Below are positions 2,520 through 34,251 of a DNA stretch of 39,913 nucleotides, piece after piece. The position numbers were made by a program, and so were the translations under genes. Location of the stretch: assembly GCA_002069885.1 (NCBI GenBank), contig MWCD01000036.1:1-39913 (forward strand). Reading direction: 5' to 3'. Source of the stretch: a bacterium ADurb.Bin236. GTDB taxonomy: Bacteria > UBP15 > UBA6099. Within the stretch, counting starts at the first letter, position 1. Every line of letters starts with the position of its first letter. Under the pieces are notes generated by a model. The model ran no database searches. It was not told the origin of the DNA and saw nothing but the letters and a program-made list of their open reading frames with translations.

Positions 2520-3209
2520 TTACTTAATTATACCTTGACGCCTTGCTTTTTTAATCAAGTTTTGTGTCGCCATTTGCAACTTTTCTTTTTTCTTCTTGTG
2601 CAAATATTCAAGCCATCCCTGCTTGATGTCGTCACCGAATTCACATGAGAACCTATCATCGGATACTGAGGCTCTCATTGCATTAACAGAGTCTGAAATG
2701 CTGTGACCTTTAGAAAGATTCTTATAAAAAGTGCAGAAACCTAAGGCCGTATCGCTCCACTCAGGATTGTCTCTGTGGCCAATAATTGCGAAGAAAGGCA
2801 CGTCATCATTTGTAATTGCCATTTTGCAGCCAGCATACCCACGACATGAGGACATACATAGAATCAAGAGGTTGTCATATTCATTATTTATCGGATTCAG
2901 TATTTTTGTTAAATCATACCAATTAATGATATCGCCATTAGTGAGAGCGATACCGTCAGCGTTTCCATGTGCACTTATATGAATAATGGGAATTGAAGAA
3001 TCGGATTCCAATGCCGCAGGGAGGCCTTCATAAACAGCTTTTTTAAACATCTCATCATTAACAGCAATAAAGTATCCACATGGTATGTTCATTAACTGAA
3101 GCATATGTACAAGAATCTGCCCTTCTGTTCTTTTAAGCAGAAAATCATCAGGAGACGGAGATTCAATTATGTGAACGAAAAAGTCCACGGGAGTTAATCC
3201 TTTGGCCAT
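2520..3209 (-). CDS. CHAT/caspase-like protease, cargo gene
   Basis: The protein has 229 residues and is encoded against the late operon. ATG at 3209 is chosen because GAGGTGG lies just before it. Caspase-fold features: a strand ending IIHISAHGNADG, putative catalytic His81, and LILCMSSCRGYAGC, putative catalytic Cys122. This His-Gly then Ser-Cys-x-Gly arrangement is typical of CHAT-family cysteine proteases. The C-terminus is Lys-rich (LHKKKKEK). The gene is clearly AT-richer than the terminase and DUF1599-like genes around it, which points to horizontal acquisition. CHAT proteases elsewhere act in bacterial defence and cell-death systems; a role in superinfection exclusion is inference. No partner gene lies next to it. 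Confidence 0.65.
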   Translation of the reverse strand: MAKGLTPVDFFVHIIESPSPDDFLLKRTEGQILVHMLQLMNIPCGYFIAVNDEMFKKAVYEGLPAALESDSSIPIIHISAHGNADGIALTNGDIINWYDLTKILNPINNEYDNLLILCMSSCRGYAGCKMAITNDDVPFFAIIGHRDNPEWSDTALGFCTFYKNLSKGHSISDSVNAMRASVSDDRFSCEFGDDIKQGWLEYLHKKKKEKLQMATQNLIKKARRQGIIK

Positions 3210-3240
3210 GTGCCACCTCATCATGCAGTAATTAATCTTA

Positions 3241-3269
3241 ATTCTACACCAAAGATGCTTGGAAAGCAT
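3241..3269 (-). promoter_or_regulatory. Possible promoter/operator of the minus-strand CHAT gene
   Basis: A perfect palindrome ATGCTT-GGA-AAGCAT lies at 3255-3269. Just downstream on the minus strand is a TAGAAT hexamer (3241-3246) that could be a -10 box, about 30 bases before the gene's start. The -35 match is poor. A dyad abutting a -10 box is the usual place for a repressor; this is inference from spacing. Confidence 0.3.
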
Positions 3270-10549: not shown

Positions 10550-10582
10550 GGCAGGCCATTTTATTTTGCAAACTCTGGTTGA

Positions 10583-10689
10583 CAATTGGTATATTATGAT
10601 AAAATTACTTTCAAATTCGAAAACGGCAAGGCAACATATGTCGAGATGAACTCGACGAGAAGTGGGAGTATAAAGACTTGCCAAATTAA
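10583..10689 (+). pseudogene. Probable remnant of a small gene
   Basis: Two frames together read like one interrupted coding stretch: DKITFKFENGKATYVE in one frame, then DELDEKWEYKDLPN and a TAA in another. A one-base shift near 10652 would join them. This suggests a decayed cargo gene between 10549 and the next intact gene. It shares the region with a candidate promoter, so both readings are tentative. Confidence 0.3.
10587..10595 (+). promoter_or_regulatory. Extended -10 promoter candidate for the second cargo module
   Basis: TGGTATATT fits an extended -10 box (TGn followed by TATATT). A TTGACA lies at 10579-10584, but too close to serve as its -35; paired with TAAAAT at 10600 it would have a 15-base spacer. 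Either way this AT-rich stretch is the likely start of the module's own transcript. Similar boxes precede the other plus-strand cargo genes at 19144 and 33483. Confidence 0.35.
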
Positions 10690-11135: not shown

Positions 11136-11756
11136 ATGAATACCCTGATAGTCAACATAACAGAGAATAAGAAAGGTTTTGAAGACAGGCTTGCAAACGA
11201 AGTGCTTGCCGCCTTGGAAAACGAATATCCCAACAGAAATACTCTTGTTAATATCACCAATAGTAATTTCGATGAACTGGAACAGGAAATATCAAAGAAT
11301 GATGTGATTTTTCTTGTTGGACATGGTCTTGCGGATGACGATATTGATCTGATCGAACTTTTCCCTACAGATACAGCGAGCACTGGTGGTAGCTTTGATC
11401 ATTTTAGGATATTTAACAATTATGAGTTGCTGGCACATTTCATCGGAATACAAAACCATAGATTCCTTTTGATTTTATGCGTTTGCGATGGCTTTTGCCC
11501 TTCTTCCCTTTCAATCACAATGGATTTCCCGAATCTTATAGGAGTAATTGGTTCGAAAACAAAAGTGTTAATTCCCAATCATCAACAAGCACTAATTTCT
11601 CTATTGAAGAGATTTCATCAACAGTGGATAACGGATAGCCGTGCCTCGAAACATGTTGAAAGTGTAACGATGCAATGGAAAAAAGAGTTTTCCGAGGTGA
11701 AAGACTTCCATTTCTTCCCAGGATTTACAATTATCGATGATGGATTTGAGGAATGA
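11136..11756 (+). CDS. Second CHAT/caspase-like cargo protein
   Basis: The 206-residue protein starts at ATG behind GGGAGAG. It shows a caspase-like core: VIFLVGHGLADDDI with putative catalytic His63, then FLLILCVCDGFC with candidate nucleophile Cys117. The string LILC before the Cys also occurs in the CHAT-like protein at 2520-3209, though the two differ greatly otherwise. Codon use and AT content mark it as cargo. It is followed after 35 bases by structured RNA copy 1. Role unknown; CHAT-like proteases in phages could act in superinfection exclusion or host takeover. The assignment rests on the His-Gly and Cys motifs, not on whole-length similarity. Confidence 0.5.
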   Translation: MNTLIVNITENKKGFEDRLANEVLAALENEYPNRNTLVNITNSNFDELEQEISKNDVIFLVGHGLADDDIDLIELFPTDTASTGGSFDHFRIFNNYELLAHFIGIQNHRFLLILCVCDGFCPSSLSITMDFPNLIGVIGSKTKVLIPNHQQALISLLKRFHQQWITDSRASKHVESVTMQWKKEFSEVKDFHFFPGFTIIDDGFEE

Positions 11757-11791
11757 TGGGAATCTTTTACCATTGAACTAAATAGCATATA

Positions 11792-11890
11792 GTCCGGCAG
11801 TATTGAACGCTCAGGCGCGGTAGCCAGTCCGTAAACGCTGAGACATCAAGCCCGGTAACAAGCGAGAGATCGCATGTTGCCGGGTTTTTT
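11792..11890 (+). ncRNA. Structured RNA, copy 1 (cargo-end element)
   Basis: This is one of three related copies in the window. Shared 5' part: GTCCGGCAGTATTGA, then stem 1 CTCAG (11810-11814) with CTGAG (11838-11842), enclosing a small hairpin CGG-TAGCCAGT-CCG. The 3' part is a long stem CCCGGTAACA...TGTTGCCGGG with inner GCGA/TCGC, followed by T6. In copy 3 stem 1 changes on both sides to TTCGA/TCGAA, which preserves pairing. It lies between the caspase-like cargo gene and the methyltransferase-protease gene. I do not recognise it as a known RNA family. Confidence 0.75.
11851..11890 (+). terminator. Intrinsic terminator forming the 3' half of RNA copy 1
   Basis: The stem CCCGGTAACA/TGTTGCCGGG, with an inner GCGA/TCGC pair around a GAGA loop, is followed directly by six T. 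It would end transcripts from the cargo module before the capsid polyprotein gene, which starts 20 bases later. Confidence 0.75.
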
Positions 11891-11910: not shown

Positions 11911-14900
11911 ATGGAAATCAACGGATTCAAAACAGACCTTGAGAAGATAAGCTTTCTGATTGAAGCCGATGCAGACCTGCGTCTCGGCCTTCTCGCCGCA
12001 GAGGGCAAGCTGGAACTCGTCACCGACCGGCGAGCCGCCGGGGGCGAATTTGGCGATACTTTATCTCCTTGCTTAACAGAATATGAATACGATCTGGAGT
12101 CGCTTGCAGCGGCTGATGACCCAGCCGAGGAGCGGCCGAAGTACATCACGAATTTCATTGGCTCCAAACAGAAGCTCGTTGACTGGATTTGGAGCAACAC
12201 GCCCGGAGACGTCGAATCCGTGTTTGACGCCTTTTCCGGCTCGTCCGTCGTCGGATACATGTACAAAACAAAGGGTCTGCGGGTCTTTTCCAACGACCGC
12301 CTCACATACTGCTATCACGCCGCGCGCGCCATCGTCGAAAATAACAACGTCCGACTGACTGAAAAAGAAATAGAAGCCCTGCTCAAAGAAAGCAATTCCG
12401 ACGCGGGCACATTCATACAAAAAACATTTCACGGCATTTTCTTCAAAAACGACGTGCTCGCGCTTCTGGATGTGATGCGCGCAAACATCGACGCGCTGAG
12501 CGGCACAAAGAAAAGCATGGCTCTGTTCGCGCTGGGCAAGACGTGCATGTCGGGGGGCGGGTTCGGGCATTTCTCATCCACCACCAAGGGCGGACAGAGA
12601 CACTACACCGTCGAAAGCTTCATTGAACATTACAGGGACAACCTGCTTCGCATCAACGCGCTCGTGTTCGACAACGGCAAGGAAAACAAAGCGTTCAACG
12701 GCGACATCGCGGACGTCGCGCCGAAAGTGAAAGCCGACCTCGTCTATTTCGATCCGCCTTACGCCACGCAGTTCAGCTCCACGAACTACGAGAAATATTA
12801 TCACTTCGTGGAAGGCCTGATGGACTACTGGAAAGACAAGGAGATAGACCACGCGAAAAAAATCCGCAACTACAAGATAGACGACTCCGGAGTGACGCCC
12901 GCGACGGCCAAACAGTTCTTCACGGATTTTCTCACCGCCTCGAAACACATCCCTCACTGGCTGATCTCCTACCGGGACAACGCATACCCGACAGAGAGCG
13001 AGATCAAGGGCATCGTCGCCGGCCTCGGCAAAGAGTCCCGCATGAAGTCGAAGGATCACAAATATCAGCTTGCGGGCAAGAACCGGGGAGACGCGCCCTC
13101 GAACGCCAAAGAAAGACTGTTCGTGTGCGCTGATGAAGCTGGTGAAGACGACGCCGGGCTGTCCGCCGTCGCCAACATGGAGGATGTCGCGGAGTTGTCT
13201 CTCGACACGGATTTCGACCTCGATGTGATGAGCGCCATCGCGGGTAAAACCGACAACGTGCTCGTGACCGGCTACATCGGCAACAAGCATTTCGTCATGA
13301 ACTGGATAGACAAGAATTTTCCTAAGGACGCCAAAAGTCTGTTTGACGCATTCTCCGGCGGCGCGAACGTCGCCTATTACTTCAAGCGCAAGGGACTGCG
13401 GGTCACGACCAACGACATCATGCGCTACCCGTATCACATCGCCCGCGCCGTCATCGAAAACAACACGGAAACAATCTCGGACGAAGAGCTGGTGGCGCTG
13501 ACGGAAAAGAACTCCGGCGCCGGGACGTTCATCGCAGACACCTTCTACGGCTACTACTACACAAAGCCGATTCTGCAGTTCATGGACGCCGTCTGGTCGA
13601 ACGCCCAGAAACTCAAAGGGTACAAGAAAGACATCGCGCTCGCCGCTCTCGGCCACACGTGCAAGGCAAAGGCCGTGTTCGGAATGTTCAACCGCAGCAA
13701 GATGAACCGAACGCGCAAGATAAGCGAACTGGACAAGGGCTATCAGTCTTCGAGCATAGGCAACATCCCCGTGGGCGAATTCATCACGGCGTACAAAAAG
13801 TATGTCCGACAGATCAATGGCCTCGTCTATGACAACGGACAGGAGAACAAGGCGCACAACGGCGACATACTCAAAACCCTCCCCGAAGTGAAAGCAGACG
13901 TCATCTACTGCGATCCGCCGTACATCACCGAATTTCTGCGCAACGACTACGAAGACTATTACCACTTCGTGGAAGGGCTGATGACGCGCTGGGAGGGAAA
14001 GGAAATCCTCGACACGCCCCGCCGCAACTTCGCGTCCCGCACGAAATACACAAAAGAAAGCATGAGAGAACTGCTTGGGGACGTCGTGACGGCGTCGGCG
14101 AAAAACTTCCCCCACATCCTCATCAGCTACCGGGACAAGGCGTTTCCCACCGAGCGGGAAATGCGCGAGATGGTGTCCGGCTCGTACAGCGACGTGAAGG
14201 TAAAGCGCATCGCCGTCGAGTACAACATCGTCAAAAAAGAGTCCGCATCGGGCGGCAAATACGCGACCGAACTGCTGTTCATCGGCAAGAAGACCTCGGG
14301 CGGCGGCGCGGCGGCAAAAGCGTCCGACCACACAACGCCCCGCAACCACACCACCGTCATTGGCGAGATCATGCCGGCGGCCGCCCCCGGCCTCGCCGCC
14401 GAGGCGATCAGCCTGTCGGACGGCAACGCGCAGGGCGACAAGGAATTCAGTTTCATCCTGACGCACGCTGGCGCGAACAAGAACGGGGACTTCTTCACGG
14501 TCGATGAGCTTTCGGCGCGCCACCAGACGGCCATCAACAAAAAGATAGACCTGAAACACTCGCAGGATTTTACGGACATCGTGGGCGGCGTCATCGCGAG
14601 CGACTTTGTTCAGGAGAGTCAGAAAGCGTGGGTCGAATGCGTCGGGGAGTTGTACACCAACGACAACATCAACTCCCGGCTGGCGTACAAGCTGATCAAG
14701 AAAGGCGTCATCACGCAGGTGTCGATGGAGTGCGATTACGAGGAGGGCGAATGCTCGATCTGCGGCAAGCGCGTGAGCAACAAGGCCGACTACTGCATCC
14801 ATCTGAAGAAACACAAGGGAGGTGAGTTCAAGGGGCAACCCGCGTATGAAATTCTTCACGGCGTCACCTTTACGGGCCTCGGCCTGCTGGACCGCAAGGG

Positions 14901-15537
14901 CGCCGACGAGAACGCGAAGATAAAGCAGGTCGCTGAAATACAAAACAACGAAGGAGGCAATGACGGTATGGACGGAGAAAACAAGAAACCGGACACCGAG
15001 GAAACCGGCGCGGCGAAAAGCGCGCTTGAGTCAATCTCGGCGGCCAACGACGCCCGGCTCAAAGAGCTTGAGGCCGAGAACAAGAAGCTTAAAGAAAGCC
15101 TCGATGAGCTTCAGAAGGAACTGGACAAGCTGAAGTCCGAGCGCGAGGCGGCGATTCGAAGCGCGCGCGCCGAGAAGCTGGTCGGCGAGATGGAAAACCG
15201 GGGCGTCGAGTTCGCCGACAGTTCCGACCGCGAGTCCGAGATGAAACGGCTGGCGGGACTGACCGACGACGCTTTCTCGGCCACCGAGGCTGCGGTCAAG
15301 CGGATGAAGAAGAAGGAGGAAAAAAAGGAGGAGCCCGACCCGGATGAGAATTCGGAGAGCGGCGAGAAAGACAAGAAGCCCGCGGGCAAGAAGAGCAAAG
15401 CCGACGCCGCCGGCGGCATGAACGCGAACGCGAACGTGCGGCTGTTCGACGTGGACGACGGAAAAGAATCCCTCGAGGACAACTTGAAGTCGGGATTCAT
15501 GGCGGCGTACAACGAGCGCGTGGGCGCGAGCAACTGA
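11911..15537 (+). CDS. Fusion of two adenine DNA methyltransferase domains, prohead protease and scaffold
   Basis: The 1208-residue protein starts at ATG behind GAGGTGA. Residues about 80-410 and 450-790 are two copies of a D12-class N6-adenine methyltransferase: each has an FIGSK/YIGNK start, DAFSG AdoMet-binding motif and intact DPPY (residues about 281 and 668) followed by YYHFVEGLM. From about 846 comes an XkdF-like prohead protease (FILTHAGANKNGDFFTV, candidate His in LKHSQD and Ser in QVSMEC) with a CSICGK...CIHLKKH metal-type insert. The last 190 residues are a charged coiled coil and Lys/Glu-rich scaffold tail. Proteases with a C-terminal scaffold are common; fusion to two methyltransferases in one frame is not usual. 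It sits where the head protease gene is expected. Confidence 0.8.
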   Translation: MEINGFKTDLEKISFLIEADADLRLGLLAAEGKLELVTDRRAAGGEFGDTLSPCLTEYEYDLESLAAADDPAEERPKYITNFIGSKQKLVDWIWSNTPGDVESVFDAFSGSSVVGYMYKTKGLRVFSNDRLTYCYHAARAIVENNNVRLTEKEIEALLKESNSDAGTFIQKTFHGIFFKNDVLALLDVMRANIDALSGTKKSMALFALGKTCMSGGGFGHFSSTTKGGQRHYTVESFIEHYRDNLLRINALVFDNGKENKAFNGDIADVAPKVKADLVYFDPPYATQFSSTNYEKYYHFVEGLMDYWKDKEIDHAKKIRNYKIDDSGVTPATAKQFFTDFLTASKHIPHWLISYRDNAYPTESEIKGIVAGLGKESRMKSKDHKYQLAGKNRGDAPSNAKERLFVCADEAGEDDAGLSAVANMEDVAELSLDTDFDLDVMSAIAGKTDNVLVTGYIGNKHFVMNWIDKNFPKDAKSLFDAFSGGANVAYYFKRKGLRVTTNDIMRYPYHIARAVIENNTETISDEELVALTEKNSGAGTFIADTFYGYYYTKPILQFMDAVWSNAQKLKGYKKDIALAALGHTCKAKAVFGMFNRSKMNRTRKISELDKGYQSSSIGNIPVGEFITAYKKYVRQINGLVYDNGQENKAHNGDILKTLPEVKADVIYCDPPYITEFLRNDYEDYYHFVEGLMTRWEGKEILDTPRRNFASRTKYTKESMRELLGDVVTASAKNFPHILISYRDKAFPTEREMREMVSGSYSDVKVKRIAVEYNIVKKESASGGKYATELLFIGKKTSGGGAAAKASDHTTPRNHTTVIGEIMPAAAPGLAAEAISLSDGNAQGDKEFSFILTHAGANKNGDFFTVDELSARHQTAINKKIDLKHSQDFTDIVGGVIASDFVQESQKAWVECVGELYTNDNINSRLAYKLIKKGVITQVSMECDYEEGECSICGKRVSNKADYCIHLKKHKGGEFKGQPAYEILHGVTFTGLGLLDRKGADENAKIKQVAEIQNNEGGNDGMDGENKKPDTEETGAAKSALESISAANDARLKELEAENKKLKESLDELQKELDKLKSEREAAIRSARAEKLVGEMENRGVEFADSSDRESEMKRLAGLTDDAFSATEAAVKRMKKKEEKKEEPDPDENSESGEKDKKPAGKKSKADAAGGMNANANVRLFDVDDGKESLEDNLKSGFMAAYNERVGASN
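14968..15537 (+). CDS. Scaffold protein from an internal in-frame start
   Basis: Within the 3' part of the polyprotein gene, AAGGAGG at 14951-14957 is followed 10 bases later by an in-frame ATG (14968; residue 1020, MDGENKKPDTEE). Translation from here would give a separate 189-residue protein made of the coiled coil (LKELEAENKKLKESLDELQK) and charged tail, ending NANVRLFDVDDG...AYNERVG. This is the lambda C/Nu3 arrangement, where the scaffold is also made alone from inside the protease gene. The ribosome site is as strong as any in the window, so independent expression is likely. Confidence 0.6.
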   Translation: MDGENKKPDTEETGAAKSALESISAANDARLKELEAENKKLKESLDELQKELDKLKSEREAAIRSARAEKLVGEMENRGVEFADSSDRESEMKRLAGLTDDAFSATEAAVKRMKKKEEKKEEPDPDENSESGEKDKKPAGKKSKADAAGGMNANANVRLFDVDDGKESLEDNLKSGFMAAYNERVGASN

Positions 15538-15565: not shown

Positions 15566-15925
15566 ATGGGATATCTGAACGCGAATCACCCCGGCCTTGC
15601 GTATGGCGACGGATATATGCAGGGCGCGGGAAGCATGGGGCAGTTCGTCAAGGCGGTCGGCGACAACACTTTTGCGGTGAACACTGACGCGGGCGTTCAG
15701 TGCGTGGGCATGCTGCGCAAAGACTACGTCGACGGCGAGATGCCCGCATTCTGGTGTTGCGGCGGCGTGTACGAAACGGATGTGTTCAGCGGCGCGATCA
15801 CCCCGAACGAGCTTCTGAGAATAGACGCCAACGGCAAACTCACCGGAGGGGGCAACAACAACAACAAGGTCGCCCAGGCGCTCAGCGTCTCCGGCGGCAT
15901 CCTGAAGTTCAAACTGCTGATCTAA
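15566..15925 (+). CDS. Capsid decoration/stabilising protein
   Basis: The 119-residue Gly-rich protein starts behind a strong GAGGAGG. It reads as a small beta barrel: MGQFVKAVGDNTFAVNTDAGVQCVGMLRKDYVDG, then SGAITPNELLRIDANGKL and KVAQALSVSGGILKFKLL. This pattern and its place between scaffold and major capsid genes match head decoration proteins of the DUF2190/gpD-like kind, which bind the outside of the expanded capsid. Assignment comes from position and general pattern. A short inverted-repeat element (15929) follows three bases after its stop. Confidence 0.6.
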   Translation: MGYLNANHPGLAYGDGYMQGAGSMGQFVKAVGDNTFAVNTDAGVQCVGMLRKDYVDGEMPAFWCCGGVYETDVFSGAITPNELLRIDANGKLTGGGNNNNKVAQALSVSGGILKFKLLI

Positions 15926-15928
15926 AAA

Positions 15929-16026
15929 CAGTAGACAGTAGAAAGCATACAGGATACAGGGAAAGACAAAAGCCAAAAAGCAATTAAAAAGCATTCCCTT
16001 TATTCTGCCTACTGCCAACTGCCTAC
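15929..16026. repeat. Inverted-end intergenic element, copy A (short)
   Basis: The left end CAGTAGACAGTAGAAAGCAT, then a CAGGGAAAG block, a purine-rich middle, and right end CTGCCTACTGCCAACTGCCTAC. The ends are inverted copies of each other and match copies at 17284, 28399, 30050 and 34150. It lies between decoration and capsid genes, three bases after a stop codon, and leaves the capsid ribosome site intact downstream. Confidence 0.75.
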
Positions 16027-16052
16027 CTTCAGAAAGGGAGGAACAACCCAGT

Positions 16053-16937: not shown

Positions 16938-17294
16938 ATGGCAAAAATCAGAAACCTCACGCCGGGCATTCTGCATGTTCCGGCGGCGAAGCTTCGGCTT
17001 CAGGGCGGCGCGGTCGCGGATGCTCCGGAAATCACCCCGGACATCCAAAAGCAGATCGACGCCGGACGCCTCGAAGTCGTCACGGACGAGGACGCGGCGA
17101 CGGAGGAAGCGCCCGCGCTACGACCGCCCGATCCGCCCGCCGATTACGACAGGCTGGATGAAGCTGGAGCCATCGATTACATCGAGGACGAGACCGACCC
17201 GAAAGTCATCAAGTCCATCTTGACCGTCGAAAACCGGCCCGGCGTGCTCGACGTCCTGAGAACCAAACTTTCAGAAGTAGAAGGCATGCAGTAG
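16938..17294 (+). CDS. Small acidic protein after the capsid gene
   Basis: The 118-residue protein starts behind AAGGAGG. It begins with a beta-like segment (IRNLTPGILHVPAAKLRLQGG) and has a Pro/Asp/Glu-rich middle; the C-terminal half (DYDRLDEAGAIDYIEDETDPKVIKSILTVENRPGVLDVL) looks like a small helical repeat. This kind of protein often sits between capsid and connector genes; role unknown, perhaps head completion. The final residues Met-Gln and the TAG stop are supplied by the left end of the element at 17284, so its original C-terminus may have been altered by that insertion. Confidence 0.55.
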   Translation: MAKIRNLTPGILHVPAAKLRLQGGAVADAPEITPDIQKQIDAGRLEVVTDEDAATEEAPALRPPDPPADYDRLDEAGAIDYIEDETDPKVIKSILTVENRPGVLDVLRTKLSEVEGMQ

Positions 17295-17727
17295 GCAGTA
17301 GAAAGGGAAAAGACTATTTCAAGGATTCTATAAGGCCGTGAAGCATCCTGCTGACCTCGCTTATGTTGGAAATATAGTCGCTGTTGGACTCGATGTAATC
17401 AAGGTCTTTGGCGAGGATGAGATAGTATCTCAATTCTTCGAGAGAGGCTTGGGCGATATTGTAATAATTCGCCTTATCCTTCAAGCCCCTCTTTTTGAAG
17501 CCCTCCGCGATATTCGCGGGAACGGAAACTGCCGCTCTCCGCATCTGGCTGACAAGCCCGTAGCGTTCCTCGGCGGGAAACGCGCCTGTTGTTTTGTAAA
17601 TATTGAGGACAAGAGAATGCGCTTTTTGCCAGACCACAAGGTCAGTGAAGTTGCTGATAGTTGCCATAGAGGCCTCCTGACTGATTTTACTTTTTTCCCT
17701 GTATGCTGTCTACTGCATGCTGCCTAC
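17284..17727. mobile_element. Inverted-end element, copy B, carrying a four-helix-bundle gene
   Basis: Left end GCATGCAGTAGGCAGTAGAA followed by AGGGAAAAG; right end, read on the minus strand, GTAGGCAGCATGCAGTAGAC followed by AGCATACAGGGAAAAAAG. The ends thus match in inverted orientation over about 28 bases. Between them is one gene (17314-17667, minus). Four shorter copies with the same ends and no gene occur in this window, so this is the 'full' version and the others look like non-coding derivatives. Confidence 0.75.
17314..17667 (-). CDS. Four-helix-bundle protein, 23S rRNA intervening-sequence (S23/Avd-like) family
   Basis: The 117-residue protein is near the usual family length, and AGGAGG precedes its ATG. 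Diagnostic pattern: FTDLVVWQKAHSLVLNIY, FPAEERYGLVSQMRRAAVSV, PANIAEGFKKRG, YYNIAQASLEELRYYLILA. Family knowledge: these small basic proteins form pentameric bundles; relatives are encoded inside 23S rRNA intervening sequences and, as Avd, bind the reverse transcriptase of diversity-generating retroelements. Here it is encoded against the late operon inside a pair of inverted ends, suggesting it acts in the element's own maintenance or movement. No reverse transcriptase is present in the window. Confidence 0.88.
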   Translation of the reverse strand: MATISNFTDLVVWQKAHSLVLNIYKTTGAFPAEERYGLVSQMRRAAVSVPANIAEGFKKRGLKDKANYYNIAQASLEELRYYLILAKDLDYIESNSDYISNISEVSRMLHGLIESLK

Positions 17728-17739
17728 CGGAGATTTTAG

Positions 17740-18565: not shown

Positions 18566-19050
18566 AGAAGACGAAATTCGGAGATTGGAACAAACTCGAG
18601 CGGACGCTGAAAAACTGCGCGCCCGTGAAATTCCAGATCGCTTTGAATAAGGCGGCGACGAAATGCGCGCTGCTGCTGGTTCGGGAAATCAAGAAGGGAA
18701 TCGTATCTCAGTCGCCCGGGGGCAAGAAGTTTGAACCGCTTGCAGCCGCGACCATCGAGAGAAAGGGTTCTTCAAAGGCGCTCATCGACACCGGCTTTCT
18801 GCTCAACGCCATCACGCAGAAGATACAGGGCGACAAGGCGTTCGTGGGACTCCTTCGGGGCACGCGAAACAAGGACGGAGACGAGATCGTGAACATCGGC
18901 GCGGTCATGGAGTTCGGAGCGACGATCCAGCATCCCAACGGCGCGACCATCGTCATCCCGCCGAGACCGTTCCTGCACCCGGTCATGGAGCAGCACAAGG
19001 AGGAGATAAAAAAGATTTTCTCGGAGGCGATCCTTGGGCTGATTGATTGA
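18562..19050 (+). CDS. Tail completion/virion morphogenesis protein (gp10/gpS-like)
   Basis: The 162-residue basic protein starts at GTG overlapping the previous stop. It shows the pattern of the HK97 gp10 and phage virion morphogenesis group: ALNKAATKCALLLVREIKKGI, then PLAAATIERKGSSKALIDTGFLLNAI, then IGAVMEFGATI and the common end IPPRPFLHPVMEQHKEEI. Family knowledge: it helps join tail to head. A cargo module at 19144-20503 separates it from the tail terminator that would normally follow. Confidence 0.75.
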   Translation: MKKTKFGDWNKLERTLKNCAPVKFQIALNKAATKCALLLVREIKKGIVSQSPGGKKFEPLAAATIERKGSSKALIDTGFLLNAITQKIQGDKAFVGLLRGTRNKDGDEIVNIGAVMEFGATIQHPNGATIVIPPRPFLHPVMEQHKEEIKKIFSEAILGLID

Positions 19051-19143
19051 GTTACAAACGCCTGTATAATTAGATGAGGCATGGTGTTGCCGATGGTTGA
19101 AAGATAATTGAAAACAGAATCATAAATCGCCTTGAGCAGCGGG

Positions 19144-19152
19144 TGATATGAT
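19144..19152 (+). promoter_or_regulatory. Extended -10 promoter candidate for the secreted cargo protein
   Basis: TGATATGAT fits TGn plus a -10 hexamer TATGAT, 38 bases before the preferred ATG at 19190. No good -35 hexamer is seen, which extended -10 promoters can lack. It lies at the AT-rich left edge of the cargo module. Confidence 0.3.
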
Positions 19153-19189
19153 ATACTTTAATAAATACTACCTTGATTGGTGGATATCG

Positions 19190-20371
19190 ATGGCGATAAA
19201 GTTGTTTCTGAAGACAGTCATTTTTCTCTTCACGATTCAAGTCGCATATGTAGCAACGGCTCTGGCTAACCATAGCTGGACTATTGATGGAGTAGGCGGA
19301 TCAGTGCGAGTGCTTGATACAGAGCACGAGTCCGTTATTATGGTTAGGGAATGGGTTCGCATGGATGTTTACGACGATTATTACACAGTGAAGGCCCAGT
19401 TTGTCTTCCACAATGATGGACCGCCGACGGATGTTATGATGGGGTTTCCAGAAAGAAATGATACATACGAACTCAGCAAATACGAAGGTTTTTTATGGTT
19501 CAATAATTGGGTTGATGGAAAGAAGGTTGATGCAGTTCGGACAAGAAGGATGCATGAAGAAGGATACCCGCTTGACGAAGACGGACAACCGATTGACGGT
19601 GAGTTGGTTTTTTTTGATGTTTATTTATGGAAAATACGCGTTGGTTTTGATCAGAATCAAACAAGAACCATACGTGTTGAGTACAAGGCAAAGGCAGGGA
19701 AAGAGGCGTTTGGCTCGAGAATCGCAGAATATAACTTCACAGGACAAAATTGGCGCGATAATGTCAAAGAAGCAAATTTCCTAGCGGTTCTGCATCTTTC
19801 AGGAACGAATCGTATTTGGATTGCATCTCCGCTGTGTTTGCGAATGAAAGACAATCGTTTGAGTGGGAAGTGGGTGGACTGGCCGGCTCAAGCCCACCTC
19901 AGAATTAACTACGCTCCAACGCTTGAAGAGGCTATCAATCTAAGTTTCGGAAAAAGAGAAAGTGAAACAGACAAATCATGTCTTATGGATGGGGTATTGT
20001 TTTCGAGAGATAAAGTACAAGAAGTAATGTTGCCTCAAGCGCTAGTGGACAATGGAAACGTATATATTAGGTCCCAAGCCTTCTATCGTATTCTTCCTAA
20101 ATGCTCATTAGAAGGAGTAACCACCAGCAAGTTTAGCGTTGAATGCAAAAGCAGAAAAGCAACATTTATTGCAGAAGAATCGACAATCGATGTTAATGGT
20201 GAAAAGCAGGAGGTATTGCTATCGCCGTTTTTTAGGAAAATTGAAAAGCATCACGACAGTGACATATATGTGCCTGCGAAAGCCACAATAGAGTTATTGG
20301 GGGGGCAGCTAGAATTTGATGATAACGCAAGAAGAGCTTGGATTGATATTGCAGGCATAATCGATAATTAG
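19190..20371 (+). CDS. Secreted cargo protein with C-terminal Cu-amine-oxidase-N-like domain
   Basis: The 393-residue protein is markedly AT-rich. ATG 19190 is preferred over 19148 because it gives a clean signal peptide: MAIKLFLKTVIFLFTIQVAY, ending ATALA-NHS. The body starts GVGGSVRVLDTEHESVIMVREWVRMDVY and has VFHNDGPPTDVMMGFPE, resembling DUF4424-type exported proteins. The C-terminus (EVLLSPFFRKIEKHHDSDIYVP...IELLGGQLEFDDNARRAWI) resembles the copper amine oxidase N-domain-like modules often found in cell-surface proteins. It is not a virion component by pattern; it is probably expressed in the lysogen and exported, altering the host envelope (inference). RNA copy 2 follows after 34 bases. 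Confidence 0.65.
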   Translation: MAIKLFLKTVIFLFTIQVAYVATALANHSWTIDGVGGSVRVLDTEHESVIMVREWVRMDVYDDYYTVKAQFVFHNDGPPTDVMMGFPERNDTYELSKYEGFLWFNNWVDGKKVDAVRTRRMHEEGYPLDEDGQPIDGELVFFDVYLWKIRVGFDQNQTRTIRVEYKAKAGKEAFGSRIAEYNFTGQNWRDNVKEANFLAVLHLSGTNRIWIASPLCLRMKDNRLSGKWVDWPAQAHLRINYAPTLEEAINLSFGKRESETDKSCLMDGVLFSRDKVQEVMLPQALVDNGNVYIRSQAFYRILPKCSLEGVTTSKFSVECKSRKATFIAEESTIDVNGEKQEVLLSPFFRKIEKHHDSDIYVPAKATIELLGGQLEFDDNARRAWIDIAGIIDN

Positions 20372-20405
20372 AACTGAATGATTTTAAAATAGATAATACA
20401 CAACA

Positions 20406-20503
20406 GCCCGGAAGTATTGAACGCTCAGGCGCGGTAGCCAGTCCGTAAAGCTCTGAGTTCAAGCCCGGTGACATGCGAGAGATCGCGCGTTGCCGGGCTT
20501 TTT
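20406..20503 (+). ncRNA. Structured RNA, copy 2 (cargo-end element)
   Basis: This copy is nearly identical to copy 1 over GTATTGAACGCTCAGGCGCG and TAGCCAGTCCGTAAA. Stem 1 is CTCAG (20424-20428) with CTGAG (20453-20457), enclosing CGG-TAGCCAGT-CCG. The terminator stem GCCCGGTGAC/GTTGCCGGGC keeps pairing although several bases differ from copy 1 (A to G opposite T, for example). It separates the secreted cargo gene from the tail terminator gene. Confidence 0.75.
20463..20503 (+). terminator. Intrinsic terminator forming the 3' half of RNA copy 2
   Basis: The stem GCCCGGTGAC/GTTGCCGGGC, with inner GCGA/TCGC around a GAGA loop, is followed by five T. It would stop cargo transcription 50 bases before the next gene. 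Confidence 0.75.
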
Positions 20504-20553: not shown

Positions 20554-21168
20554 ATGAACTCAAACATTAGAAATGCCGCTGAAGCTCTTGTCCGTAAACT
20601 TCAGGCGGACGCGGCGCCGAACACTGTTCTGGTTCCTGTTAACGACCACTACGAGATAAAGCAGGTTCCCTCTCTTCTTGCGATAGGCCCGAAGATGGAA
20701 GAGAACCGCTCGAAGCGAATATATGAAAAGAGGGTGGAGACGGACAGAGTCAGCCTCGCTTACGCCGAGCGCAACTGGCCCCGGTTCTATCATCTGGATT
20801 TCGATTTAGTCCTTACGACGGGCAACGGGATGGAGCTTCTCGAACTTCAGGAGCGGCTGACAGCGTTTTTTCTGGACAACATTTCTCTGTCCATTCCGTG
20901 CGCCGTCGGATGGGGACTCGGCCCGTATGGGATCGAGCCGTGGGGTTCGGAGTCCGGCGACCTGAAGTTTTATCTGCGCGAGATGGTTCCCATGGGCGGT
21001 CTGGAGAGGCCTAACCTGTCGAATCTCCGTCAGGCTTCCGGGCGATACCGCATCGAGGATGTTCCCGTTTTCGATCACGCGCTTGAGCAAGGCAAACTCG
21101 TTGTCCACCGGGACTTTGTTCTGTGCGACATGGAGTCGCGGGTTCCGGTGGAAACTTTTTCACGATAG
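20554..21168 (+). CDS. Probable tail terminator/tail completion protein
   Basis: The 204-residue protein starts behind GGGGAGGTG. It begins with MNSNIRNAAEALVRKLQADA and has an alternating alpha/beta body (RFYHLDFDLVLTTGNGMELLELQERLTAFF), as in tail terminator proteins that cap the tube. Its place directly before the sheath gene supports this. It carries the motif GWGLGPYGIEPWGSE, which recurs in altered form in the 49-residue protein at 34006; both genes follow a copy of the structured RNA. Confidence 0.5.
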   Translation: MNSNIRNAAEALVRKLQADAAPNTVLVPVNDHYEIKQVPSLLAIGPKMEENRSKRIYEKRVETDRVSLAYAERNWPRFYHLDFDLVLTTGNGMELLELQERLTAFFLDNISLSIPCAVGWGLGPYGIEPWGSESGDLKFYLREMVPMGGLERPNLSNLRQASGRYRIEDVPVFDHALEQGKLVVHRDFVLCDMESRVPVETFSR

Positions 21169-27882: not shown

Positions 27883-28406
27883 GGGAAAACGGAACCATCA
27901 GCGCGATTCCTACGCCGGACAAAGGGTTTCTGTATTCAGCCAATGGCGGCGTGATTCTGGATTTCTCCGTGAACCCGGCGCAGCTTCACCGGCAGGAGCA
28001 GGCGACGTTCAACACAAGCATGTCGCCGGGCGCGCCGGGCGCGTTTGTTCAATACACTGGCGGCGGGGAGCGCAACGTGACGTTCGAGCTTATTCTTGAC
28101 GCCATCGGAACCCGCGCCGGAGATGGCGGCGTCCTGCGTCAGCTCTCCATTCTTGAATCTTTCACATATCCGGACACGAACGATCTGGTCAACGCGCAGT
28201 TCGTGCCGCCGCCCCGCGCGCTGCTCGGTGTCGGCCCGCGCATCTGGGAAGGATACGTTTCGATGATTCAATTCACGGAGGAACGGTTTAACGTCCGGAT
28301 GGAGCCGGTGTATGTGAAAGCGCAGTTGACGTTCACGCTCGATATGTGGAAAAACGACACCAGCAGGCGGATGCATCAGACGCGCCGCCAGTTCTTGAGT
28401 AGGTAG
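27879..28406 (+). CDS. Baseplate tube-initiation protein (contractile injection system tube-like)
   Basis: The 175-residue protein overlaps the tape measure stop by four bases. It has the pattern of the N-domain of proteins that join tube and hub: GGVILDFSVNPAQLHRQEQATF, GGGERNVTFELILDAIGTRA, LRQLSILESFTYPDTN, and VSMIQFTEERFNVRMEPVYVKAQLTFTLDMW. In many relatives a LysM domain follows in the same protein; here it is a separate gene (28525) across an inverted-end element, whose left end supplies this gene's TAG stop. Confidence 0.7.
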   Translation: MRENGTISAIPTPDKGFLYSANGGVILDFSVNPAQLHRQEQATFNTSMSPGAPGAFVQYTGGGERNVTFELILDAIGTRAGDGGVLRQLSILESFTYPDTNDLVNAQFVPPPRALLGVGPRIWEGYVSMIQFTEERFNVRMEPVYVKAQLTFTLDMWKNDTSRRMHQTRRQFLSR

Positions 28407-28520
28407 CATGCAGTAGGTAGTAGACAGGGGAAATGAAAACAAGAAAAAGGAATTGGGCGAGCGCATTTGGGGATGGGGAAGGATGTTCTCTTTCTACTAT
28501 ATGCTGCCTACTGCCTACTG
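28399..28520. repeat. Inverted-end intergenic element, copy C (short)
   Basis: Left end GTAGCATGCAGTAGGTAGTA then GACAGGGGAAA; right end CTATATGCTGCCTACTGCCT followed by ACTG. The ends are inverted copies. The upstream gene's TAG stop (28404) falls inside the left end. The right end abuts the next gene's ATG and no ribosome site remains between them. Confidence 0.75.
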
Positions 28521-29648: not shown

Positions 29649-30053
29649 ATGAGGCCTGTTGACTTGAACAGGATTGCCGATGCGGACGCCATCCCCGCCG
29701 CTCCTAAAAGCGGCGCGATTTCAGGCGTGGGCACGGGCGGGGGAAAAAGCGAAGTCGAGACGACGCACTACTTAAAGGACAACGAAATCGGCGGCGCGCT
29801 GCCGGACACGCAGGAGGGACTCGACTCGGCGTCGGGCGCAAAACATTACAGAAATGAAAAAGCGATGCAGGGCTCGCTCACGCTTGTCCGAGGATTCCCG
29901 CAGATAAACGCCGGCGACAAAGTGGCCGTGCTGGGCGTGGGATCGGTGTTCTCCGGCGAATGGATAGTGAAGACGCACACGCTCAAAATCTCGCGGGACG
30001 GATGCCACAGCGCGCTTGAACTGACGCGCAACGCGGTGGGAGTGAAGAAGTAG
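29649..30053 (+). CDS. Baseplate hub C-terminal part as a separate gene
   Basis: The 134-residue protein starts one base after the hub stop. Its second half (AMQGSLTLVRGFPQINAGDKVAVLGVGSVFSGEWIVKTHTLKISRDGCHSALELTR) is the typical C-terminal barrel of gpD-like hubs. The first 45 residues are Gly/Ser-rich and disordered-looking. A split hub or a two-subunit hub both fit; the intact reading frames and start suggest two functional products. The TAG stop is shared with the inverted-end element at 30050. Confidence 0.7.
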   Translation: MRPVDLNRIADADAIPAAPKSGAISGVGTGGGKSEVETTHYLKDNEIGGALPDTQEGLDSASGAKHYRNEKAMQGSLTLVRGFPQINAGDKVAVLGVGSVFSGEWIVKTHTLKISRDGCHSALELTRNAVGVKK

Positions 30054-30156
30054 GCAGTAGGCAGAATAAAGTAGACAGGGGGAAAGAAAAAGACAGGCGA
30101 AATGTGAAGGCGGGGTTGGCTTTTGCTGCCTACTGCATGCTGTCTACTTTCTACTG
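30050..30156. repeat. Inverted-end intergenic element, copy D (short)
   Basis: Left end GTAGGCAGTAGGCAGAATAA then AGTAGACAGGGGGAAAGAAA; right end CTGCCTACTGCATGCTGTCT then ACTTTCTACT. The first TAG is the stop codon of the hub gene. GGAG right after the element serves as ribosome site for the spike gene. Confidence 0.75.
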
Positions 30157-32013: not shown

Positions 32014-33495
32014 ATGCCTGAACTTGACGTGAGCCGTCTGGTCAATTTCTCTAAGCAGATCGACTATACCAGTCTGGACTGGTTGTCTTTCCTGTCCGAC
32101 ATGGTTGACCGGATTCCTCAACTGACGCCGGAATGGACAGACCACTCTGCGTCCGATCAGGGGATAGTTATTCTCGAACTCGTCGCGTTCGCGCTAGACG
32201 CTCTTTCCTATCGCTGCGACATCATCGCAAACGAGGCTTACATCCAGACCGCCGTTCTGCGCAAATCAGTCCTGAACCTCGCAAAGATGATTGATTACAC
32301 TCCGGCGCCCGCAGTGTCGGCCGTCGCCGATCTTGTGTTTACGATTACACCGCAACCGATAGATTTTGTCATTCCTAAAGGCGCGCAGATTTCCACCCAG
32401 CCGACAGGCCTCGAGCAAAGCTATGTGTTCGAGACGATGAAAGACCTCGTCATTCCCGCCGGAGAAACAACGGGCGCGGTCGCCGCCATCGAGGGGGAAA
32501 CAAAGCGTGAAATTCTTGGCAGCAGCGCCGGGCTGCCCGCGCAGTTCTTTGAGCTGAGTTTCAAACCTCTGTCATACTCGCCTGACGGCGCGTGCTCGCT
32601 TGAGATTTATGTGGCCGAAAACGGCGTCGAGGAACGCTGGACGCTCGCGCCGTCACTTCTTGACAGCAATCCATCGGAAAAGAGCTTCGAGATTGAGATA
32701 GACGAAAACGACATCGTGACGGTTAACTTCGGGGACAACCAGAATGGGAAAATCCCCGCGCCGGGCATGAACAACGTTCGCGCCGTCTATCGCGTCGGGG
32801 GCGGCGCGCGGGGCAATGTGGGCGCGAACAAGATCAACAGAATGATTACAAGCGTCTCCGAAGTGTCGTCCGTCACCAACCCGGCGCAGGCGGCAGGCGG
32901 CGTCGACCGCGAGTCGGTCGAGAGCGTAAAGCGCATGGCGCCTAAAATGCTTCGCACGCTCTGGCGGGCGGTGACGGCGGAAGATTACAAAACGCTTGCC
33001 GAGGCTCTGCCGGGAGTGGCGAAAGCGGCGGTTCTGTGCGCGCCGCCCGGTCAGGCGGCGTACTGGGGACAGGTCAATCTTTACATCGCCCCTGAAGGCG
33101 GCGGGCCTCCGTCGCCCGAACTCAAGCAGATGGTCGAGGACTATTTAGCCGACCGGGAAATGCTGAACGCCACGACTGTCGTGTTCGACCCGGTCTACGT
33201 TCCGGTGAACGTGACGATGGAAGTCGCGGTGAAAGAAAACTATATGCGGCTCGACATCGAGAACCTCGTGAGGGAAAAGATAGAGAAGTTTTTCTATTTC
33301 CCCAACGTGGACTTCGGGCAGAGCGTGTTCATGAGCGACCTCATCGCCGCCGTGGACGGCATTGAGGGCGTGCGGTATGTGAACCTGACGGTTCTCTCCC
33401 GCGATGAAACCGGTGTGGGGAATGTAATCATCAGACAAGATGAGCTTCCGCAACTCGGTTTGTTTTCTCTGGATGCGTTTGGTGGTATAATTTAG
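32014..33495 (+). CDS. Baseplate J-like protein (wedge)
   Basis: The 493-residue protein shows DYTSLDWLSFLSDMVDRIPQLTPEWTDHSASDQGIVILELVAFALDALSY and the SYRCDIIANEAYIQTAVLRKSV motif common to J/gp6-like wedge proteins, then EIDENDIVTVNFGDNQNGKIPAPG, the GGGARGNVGANKI signature, GGVDRESVESVKRMAPKMLRT and AVTAEDYKTLAEALPGVAKA. Family knowledge: it forms the outer ring that triggers sheath contraction. Its last codons contain the extended -10 box of the next cargo gene. Confidence 0.92.
   Translation: MPELDVSRLVNFSKQIDYTSLDWLSFLSDMVDRIPQLTPEWTDHSASDQGIVILELVAFALDALSYRCDIIANEAYIQTAVLRKSVLNLAKMIDYTPAPAVSAVADLVFTITPQPIDFVIPKGAQISTQPTGLEQSYVFETMKDLVIPAGETTGAVAAIEGETKREILGSSAGLPAQFFELSFKPLSYSPDGACSLEIYVAENGVEERWTLAPSLLDSNPSEKSFEIEIDENDIVTVNFGDNQNGKIPAPGMNNVRAVYRVGGGARGNVGANKINRMITSVSEVSSVTNPAQAAGGVDRESVESVKRMAPKMLRTLWRAVTAEDYKTLAEALPGVAKAAVLCAPPGQAAYWGQVNLYIAPEGGGPPSPELKQMVEDYLADREMLNATTVVFDPVYVPVNVTMEVAVKENYMRLDIENLVREKIEKFFYFPNVDFGQSVFMSDLIAAVDGIEGVRYVNLTVLSRDETGVGNVIIRQDELPQLGLFSLDAFGGII
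33483..33491 (+). promoter_or_regulatory. Extended -10 promoter for the third plus-strand cargo gene
   Basis: TGGTATAAT is a perfect TGn plus TATAAT, lying inside the end of the baseplate J frame and 28 bases before the cargo ATG. The -35 (TTTTCT at 33463-33468, 17-base spacer) is weak. It gives the cargo its own transcription start inside the late operon. Confidence 0.5.
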
Positions 33496-33791: not shown

Positions 33792-33866
33792 TTTGAAATT
33801 ACTTGTGCGTGGTCTTTTAAGGCAATGCTGTTTGCCAACATTCTATATTGATTTTGAATAGAAACA

Positions 33867-33973
33867 GTCCGGCAGTATTGACGCTTCGAGCCCGGTAGCC
33901 AGCCCGGTCGCATCGAAACCAAGCCCGGTGATTGAACGGAATATTCGCGTTCCGTTGAATTGCCGGGCTTTTT
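33867..33973 (+). ncRNA. Structured RNA, copy 3 (diverged cargo-end element)
   Basis: The same order of parts as copies 1 and 2: GTCCGGCAGTATTGA, stem 1 now TTCGA (33885-33889) with TCGAA (33913-33917), inner hairpin CCGG-TAGCCAGC-CCGG, then terminator stem GCCCGGTGAT/ATTGCCGGGC with a new inner stem AACGGAA/TTCCGTT and T5. Sequence of the stems differs while pairing and the loop TAGCCAG stay. It lies 75 bases after the cargo stop and 32 before the next gene. Confidence 0.75.
33923..33973 (+). terminator. Intrinsic terminator forming the 3' half of RNA copy 3
   Basis: The outer stem GCCCGGTGAT/ATTGCCGGGC and inner stem AACGGAA/TTCCGTT are followed by five T, the longest of the three terminator stems in the window. 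Confidence 0.75.
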
Positions 33974-34005: not shown

Positions 34006-34155
34006 ATGGCTGATACAGGATGGGGTCTTGACCCGTGGGGAATGGAGTCGTGGGGATCGCCGCTTCAGGACTTCCCCGGCATCGAAGAGACCGAGTTTGA
34101 GAGGGTCGACGGGGTGGTTGAAAGCCCCGGAGTGTTTTTCTTCGAAAAACAGTAG
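34006..34155 (+). CDS. 49-residue WG-motif protein
   Basis: A short protein starts at ATG behind GGAGGTG. Its N-terminus DTGWGLDPWGMESWGSPLQD closely resembles GWGLGPYGIEPWGSE of the tail protein at 20554. The rest (FERVDGVVESPGVFFFEKQ) is unrecognised. The shared motif suggests a common binding partner in the tail or a common origin with the 20554 gene. Its TAG stop is the left end of an inverted-end element. Confidence 0.6.
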   Translation: MADTGWGLDPWGMESWGSPLQDFPGIEETEFERVDGVVESPGVFFFEKQ

Positions 34156-34251
34156 GAAGTAGGAAGCATAAAGTAGTCAGGGAAAAAGAAAGCCAAAGAG
34201 AAAAAGCTTCTGAGTATTTCCTTTCTACTGGATTGCTGCCTACTGCCTACT
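34150..34251. repeat. Inverted-end intergenic element, copy E (short)
   Basis: Left end CAGTAGGAAGTAGGAAGCAT then AAAGTAGTCAGGGAAAAAGA; right end CTTTCTACTGGATTGCTGCC then TACTGCCTACT. It contains the TAG stop of the 34006 gene. A fresh GGAGG lies between it and the next ATG. Confidence 0.75.

Follow-up and report, generated by a model that had tools for sequence, protein, structure and literature searches.

The stretch of DNA analysed here, referred to below as the window, comprises 39,913 nucleotides and contains genes of a myovirus-like prophage together with AT-rich cargo genes, whose G+C content is 0.38–0.41 compared with about 0.55–0.60 for the phage genes. Three of the cargo modules are followed on the plus strand by a copy of one structured RNA element (Table 1). 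The distance of the copies from the stop codon of the AT-rich cargo is 33–75 nt, and at the 3' end each has a long G+C-rich hairpin and then T5–T6. All three had been proposed in a sequence-only reading; reading the sequence directly places their starts within a few bases of the positions proposed, and also reproduces the paired changes that had been described between copies, namely CTCAG/CTGAG versus TTCGA/TCGAA and GCGA/TCGC versus AACGGAA/TTCCGTT. The three copies fold better than their dinucleotide shuffles, with z of -4.8, -3.1 and -3.7.

The cargo proteins vary by allele, and none of them matched a curated family above the cut-off. A fourth cargo gene in the window (2520–3269, minus strand) is antisense and stands without the RNA element. 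Its protein and that of the plus-strand gene at 11136–11756 are weakly similar (28% over 109 aa, E 2e-4), the similarity being centred on a ..H(G).. and ..LLILC.. pattern that possibly indicates a caspase/CHAT-like fold; neither protein has a Pfam match above the cut-off. The phage gene at 11911–15537 consists of two copies of a D12-type adenine methyltransferase domain fused to a further C-terminal part, and is located inside the capsid cluster. The host genome (G000) holds several related prophages or prophage fragments, on contigs C29, C36, C45, C63, C67 and C108, with head proteins that are 82–100% identical.

Table 1. Positions in the window of the RNA element, its parts, and the neighbouring genes and promoter-like sequences
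Feature	Position	Strand	Basis or remark
RNA element copy 1 (site 1 type)	11791..11890	+	Covariance-model match, 85.5 bits with R1 and 95.3 bits with R2
Conserved 5' segment CCGG-CA-GU-A-UUGA of copy 1 (5' strand of the predicted antiterminator helix P0)	11794..11806	+	Conservation and nascent-RNA pairing
P1/P2 hairpin with loop UAGCCAGU, copy 1	11810..11842	+	Covariation
Intrinsic terminator hairpin and U-tract, copy 1	11848..11890 (5' arm 11848-11860, 3' arm 11875-11887)	+	Folding; pairing kept in 18/18
RNA element copy 2 (site 2)	20405..20503	+	Sequence read, covariance-model match
RNA element copy 3 (site 3 type)	33866..33973	+	Sequence read, covariance-model match
Degraded copy of the 46-48-aa small ORF found at the 5' edge of the relatives' site-1 modules	10592..10675	+	
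Promoter-like TTGACA-15-TAAAAT ahead of cargo 1	10579..10605	+	Consensus
Cargo ORF 1 of site 1, 135 aa	10708..11115	+	No family match
Cargo ORF 2 of site 1, 206 aa	11136..11756	+	No family match above cut-offs
Phage gene 3' of copy 1, D12-type adenine methyltransferase domains and C-terminal part	11911..15537	+	Start codon 20 nt past the U-tract
Promoter-like TTGATT-16-TATAAT ahead of cargo 2	19043..19070	+	Consensus
Cargo ORF of site 2, 407 aa, hydrophobic N-terminal stretch	19148..20371	+	No family match
Phage gene 3' of copy 2	20554..21168	+	
Promoter-like TTTTCT-17-TATAAT of site 3, an extended -10 (TG), where the preceding baseplate gene ends	33463..33491	+	Consensus
Cargo ORF of site 3, 90 aa	33519..33791	+	
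Small phage gene (MADTGWGLDPWG...) 3' of copy 3	34007..34155	+	

Searching the whole window against Rfam (Rfam 15) at the gathering threshold gave no family matching the RNA element, which agrees with the earlier statement that it could not be assigned to a known family. A relaxed-threshold Rfam search around copy 1 returned chance matches only (E above 2), and BLAST against annotated phages returned nothing relevant. A covariance model built from copies 2 and 3 (R1) recovers copy 1 with E 2e-20, and its matches in other genomes reach E values as low as 4e-26, far beyond what chance would give. Over seven genomes of the phylum, R1 finds 11 copies in four genomes, namely seven in the window's own genome, two in G003, and one each in G001 and G006; G002, G004 and G005 have neither a copy at E 0.001 nor a match to the head protein. 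Viral contigs with relatives of the window's major head and baseplate proteins contribute seven further complete copies and one cut by the contig end. The bona fide copies total 19, nearly all of them in one myovirus-like prophage clade of a small phylum, and a second covariance model (R2) adds one degenerate copy (G000:C98:4652-4750). The further homologues for which a covariance-model search had been suggested do exist, as 16 bona fide copies beyond the window's three and the degenerate one.

No copy was found in more distant relatives, whose head proteins are about 47–69% identical. A gapped exact pattern gave, in the viral contigs, chance matches inside coding sequence only, and a tighter pattern gave none. 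Three candidates were rejected: L124, the single match in the genome collection, which is without a terminator and overlaps other genes; L233 (27 bits), an internal repeat within coding-looking sequence; and L247, which is a terminator of simple form and unrelated. The RNA family has no precedent in Rfam and, to the extent of the collections searched, is limited to one prophage clade.

Alignment A6 comprises the 18 complete copies out of the 19, most of them from related prophages. In these copies, helix P1 has seven pairs, four of which show double changes; 98% of the cells are paired and 21 are double-change cells. Five versions of the helix can be distinguished by eye (CUCAG/CUGAG, UUCGA/UCGAA, CCGA/UCGG, AUCAA/UUGAU and AUCGA/UCGAU). 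The covariation score of the structure made up of P1, P2 and the terminator exceeds those of 500 out of 500 shuffles and of all slid controls, and when the 3' arms are permuted among the eight different P1 haplotypes, pairing as good as that observed has p about 4e-4. Helix P1 is real, and through its covariation the proposal of selection on an RNA structure is upheld. So is the claim that the copies end in a terminator stem: the G+C-rich hairpin is paired in 18 of 18 copies, with a U-tract immediately after the stem. The loop TAGCCAG, which had been called invariant, is common to the window's three copies only; the family also has TAACCAG, TAAATAA, TAAGTAA, TAAACAA and CGAACGAG, with UAACCAG in the majority and UAAAUAA-like loops in the cargo-free copies of site 1. 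All three window copies have UAGCCAG whereas the CCAG-loop copies of other prophages have UAACCAG, and the loop shared within the window would have arisen either by gene conversion inside the prophage or by co-adaptation to a common partner. Two tandem local hairpins (box 1 with box 2, box 3 with box 4) were rejected by inspection as the conserved fold because G020 and the site-1 copies without cargo retain P1 and not the local hairpins.

Every copy except that on C98 is found at one of three junctions in one family of myovirus-like prophages. Site 1 lies upstream of the methyltransferase-containing gene (window 11911) and site 3 upstream of a small gene (window 34007), and each is represented by four alleles with cargo and five without; one of the four cargo-bearing site-3 alleles is a relic beside cellular genes in G006. 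At site 2, upstream of gene 20554, element and cargo are present in the window only. The flanking genes overlap there in seven relatives, which have neither element nor cargo, and therefore the element arrived at this site with the cargo. Sites 1 and 3 retain the element both with and without cargo, and consequently the element serves the phage itself. It is a permanent feature of these two sites, and cargo is put between the upstream stop codon and the element. The notion that each copy closes an AT-rich cargo module consequently applies to the three copies in the window and not to the family, in which 10 of the 19 copies are without cargo. As is characteristic of morons, the cargo genes are situated between phage genes, are absent from the same junction in close relatives and deviate in base composition; a promoter and a terminator of their own are recognised by sequence alone, the former as promoter-like by consensus and the latter by its structure.

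Cargo-bearing alleles have a TATAAT-like hexamer before the cargo, which most cargo-free alleles are without. The sequence is TGGTATAAT at site 3 and, at site 1, where it falls within a small ORF of 46 aa, TGTTATAAT or TGTTACAAT. The promoter-like score is higher in cargo-bearing than in cargo-free alleles (Mann-Whitney p about 0.001), a value that is indicative, the sequences being related. At site 1, both the small ORF and the element type differ between cargo-bearing and cargo-free alleles. The small ORF is also found ahead of cargo at helicase junctions (C98 and C118) and ahead of a cargo-like gene in G006, and on C98 the degenerate element and then a primase-like gene come after the cargo. 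This arrangement suggests an accessory cassette with two recurrent ends. At several unrelated junctions (window 10592-10675, L250 2089-2226, L262 and L263), cargo modules have a small ORF of 46-48 aa at their 5' edge, and an extended -10 (TGTTATAAT or similar) is present within it in most cargo-bearing versions.

One could regard such ends, with the small ORF and its promoter on the 5' side and the element on the 3' side, as a recombination handle whose homology allows cassettes to be exchanged between prophages, a role of the kind proposed for the mobile regulatory cassettes of T4-type phages. Copy 2 is 96% identical to copy 1 in DNA over 45 nt, site-1 alleles with and without cargo differ at both ends, and the cargo at the helicase/primase junction lies between the same small ORF and a degenerate element, all of which agree with exchange. 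The covariation, however, shows that it is pairing of the RNA, rather than identity of the DNA, that is under selection; the DNA identity between site types is low, only 73%, and the element is kept without cargo. Cassette exchange could be a by-product, and we consider a recombination handle an improbable explanation of the element.

Other repeats are found in the same prophage and at related junctions. Paired palindromic repeats with GTAGGCAGTAGGCAG arms occur between phage genes of the window (15921-16027, 17276-17728, 28398-28519, 30040-30148 and 34142-34251), and three of the five form long hairpins (roughly 100 nt) when folded. Within the host genome their core motif is found only on this contig, and on C45 the corresponding genes abut at two of these junctions; the repeats look like insertions specific to this prophage. 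Distant relatives have a motif, GACAYTT-N10-TCCGGTARGTAWYCA, that is repeated at the same junctions as the RNA element and elsewhere (L154 3720 and 10639, L161 2705 and 9593, L163 5623, L164 6792, L174 5942, and L203-L212). Several of its occurrences are followed by sequence able to pair CUCC with the GGAG ribosome-binding site of the next gene, and the motif could be a late promoter with a hairpin hiding the ribosome-binding site, or a separate RNA leader. An Rfam scan of eight records gave no match to it. Homology of box 1 with TCCGGTARGTAWYCA of the distant relatives is not claimed, the similarity being about chance level by a rough count.

The anatomy of a terminator inside an operon and the position of the next start codon, usually 20–50 nt downstream, point to a cis-acting terminator or attenuator, and the reading of the element as a terminator is strong. 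A quite different role for the same sequence would be that of a late promoter inside the element, starting RNA past the 5' arm of the terminator, such that late mRNA is free of the hairpin and read-through from the cargo is terminated. There is an analogy in T4, where hairpins block translation of early read-through mRNA, and at the same junction distant relatives have the repeated GACAYTT-N10-TCCGGTARGTA, in several cases followed by a hairpin pairing with the ribosome-binding site, which could be a late promoter. The window's clade, however, is without a conserved upstream motif of that kind, and covariation of P1 as RNA is superfluous for a promoter, which makes this role very unlikely.

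Any conditionality of the terminator would most likely depend on the segment that precedes it. The 5' box CCGG.AGURUU is invariant in 18 copies, and the 5' segment CCGG-NA-GU-R-UUGA is predicted to pair with UCAAGCCCGG, which contains the terminator's 5' arm; because of this shared arm, the predicted antiterminator and the terminator are mutually exclusive. In the predicted ensemble of the nascent RNA, before the 3' arm is made, the mean probability is 0.80 for CCGG:CCGG and 0.81 for UUGA:UCAA, and in that of the complete RNA it is 0.00 for CCGG:CCGG and 1.00 for the terminator. Evolutionary support for P0 is thin: eight of its ten pairs are constant, and in 8 of the 18 copies one pair does not form. 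UUGA/UCAA is replaced by UUUC/GAAA in the divergent G020 lineage, a change of two pairs on both sides that is seen in this single lineage. Energetically P0 is not exceptional, as shuffles of the 5' segment yield nascent folds of similar energy (per-copy p 0.04-0.84). The finished terminator is predicted to be far more stable than P0, and therefore termination would be the default without a partner. A mechanism based on ribosome position was rejected as not general because the spacing from stop codon to element is 12–16 nt in most cargo-free copies versus about 10–106 nt in cargo-bearing ones.

These properties can also be accommodated by a plain intrinsic terminator with an accessory 5' hairpin and no switching, which is passed by processive antitermination due to a phage factor acting elsewhere; the sole role of P1 would then be to shield the 3' end or to keep upstream RNA from misfolding into the terminator. 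The strength and invariance of the terminator and the non-significant shuffle test are as such a terminator would have them, and processive systems are able to pass many terminators without local elements (PMC8955417, PMC9378689). A protective hairpin, however, does not need the single-stranded box CCGG.AGURUU, which is conserved as much as the terminator arm in the 18 copies, and the pairing of box 1 with box 4 is predicted to dominate the nascent ensemble in most copies. We regard the plain terminator as possible, though not probable. Between a local switch via P0 and a passive terminator passed by general antitermination, the local switch is somewhat more likely.

Our preferred reading, which we hold with middling confidence, is that of a conditional terminator that keeps cargo transcription out of the late genes but lets transcription pass in the lytic cycle. 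The element would be an intrinsic terminator built into the late operon, at fixed junctions that double as docking sites for morons. In the lysogen it would halt transcription coming from the cargo's promoter, or spurious transcription, before the essential structural genes 20–50 nt further on. In the lytic cycle it would be silent or bypassed and the structural genes downstream transcribed; such read-through would be needed because structural genes follow with little or no room for a promoter past the U-tract. The conserved 5' domain would be the most likely source of conditionality. In the nascent RNA, the 5' segment and UCAAGCCCGG would pair around hairpin P1 to form an antiterminator that excludes the terminator, and a putative factor, either a phage protein or a modified polymerase, would stabilise it. 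More tentatively, and with more doubt than confidence, we propose a phage-specific RNA switch, in which several conditional terminators in the late operon, through a 5'-domain antiterminator recognised by a putative phage factor, would separate moron transcription (lysogenic) from structural transcription (lytic) and serve as permanent docking sites for accessory genes.

The ability of a lysogen to express accessory genes without waking the surrounding late genes is usually credited to ordinary terminators. In this case, the docking sites of a whole prophage clade are marked by a single RNA family, which can be traced by its sequence and covariation and is kept without cargo, such that the split between lysogenic and lytic transcription becomes directly testable. 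The element can also be used for finding accessory genes in prophages of an uncultured phylum.

A terminator or attenuator at moron sites is of a known kind; what is new is the permanent, covarying 5' domain and the docking sites that are independent of cargo. As with moron terminators in general, an AT-rich gene with its own promoter-like sequence and terminator is located between conserved structural genes, but here the terminator belongs to an element with conserved structure and a covarying 5' domain, which persists without cargo. The mobile regulatory cassettes of T4-type phages consist of promoter/stem-loop repeats at module boundaries and have been linked to module exchange. Repeated promoter and stem-loop sequences at module boundaries are found here as well, but in these prophages the stem-loop comes after the cargo, on its 3' side, and is a terminator of the late operon that carries a conserved 5' RNA domain. 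Integron attC sites, in which an imperfect palindrome ends in the core sites RYYYAAC/GTTRRRY, likewise close each gene cassette; the RNA element differs by its position, standing also without cargo. With attenuators and riboswitches it shares a predicted pair of mutually exclusive antiterminator and terminator that use one strand in common, just before the start of a gene. It differs in having no apparent ligand and no strongly conserved aptamer core (the conservation of its variable loop is modest for an aptamer) and in occurring in several copies per operon.

The conAn system of pLS20 and the canT system of Tn916 combine terminators that insulate against spurious transcription with antitermination in the long operons of mobile elements (PMC8955417, PMC11658703), and the same logic is found in lambdoid phages and HK022 (PMC9378689). 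Insulating intrinsic terminators inside a long operon are common to conAn, canT and the prophages described here; antitermination in the former acts once, near the promoter, and processively, whereas here a structured domain precedes each terminator. The put RNA of HK022, which is about 70 nt long with two stem-loops, affects termination in cis (PMC9378689), as we propose for the present phage RNA with its stem-loops. However, put is situated just past early promoters and acts on distant terminators, whereas the element is fused to its own terminator and occurs in several copies in the late structural operon.
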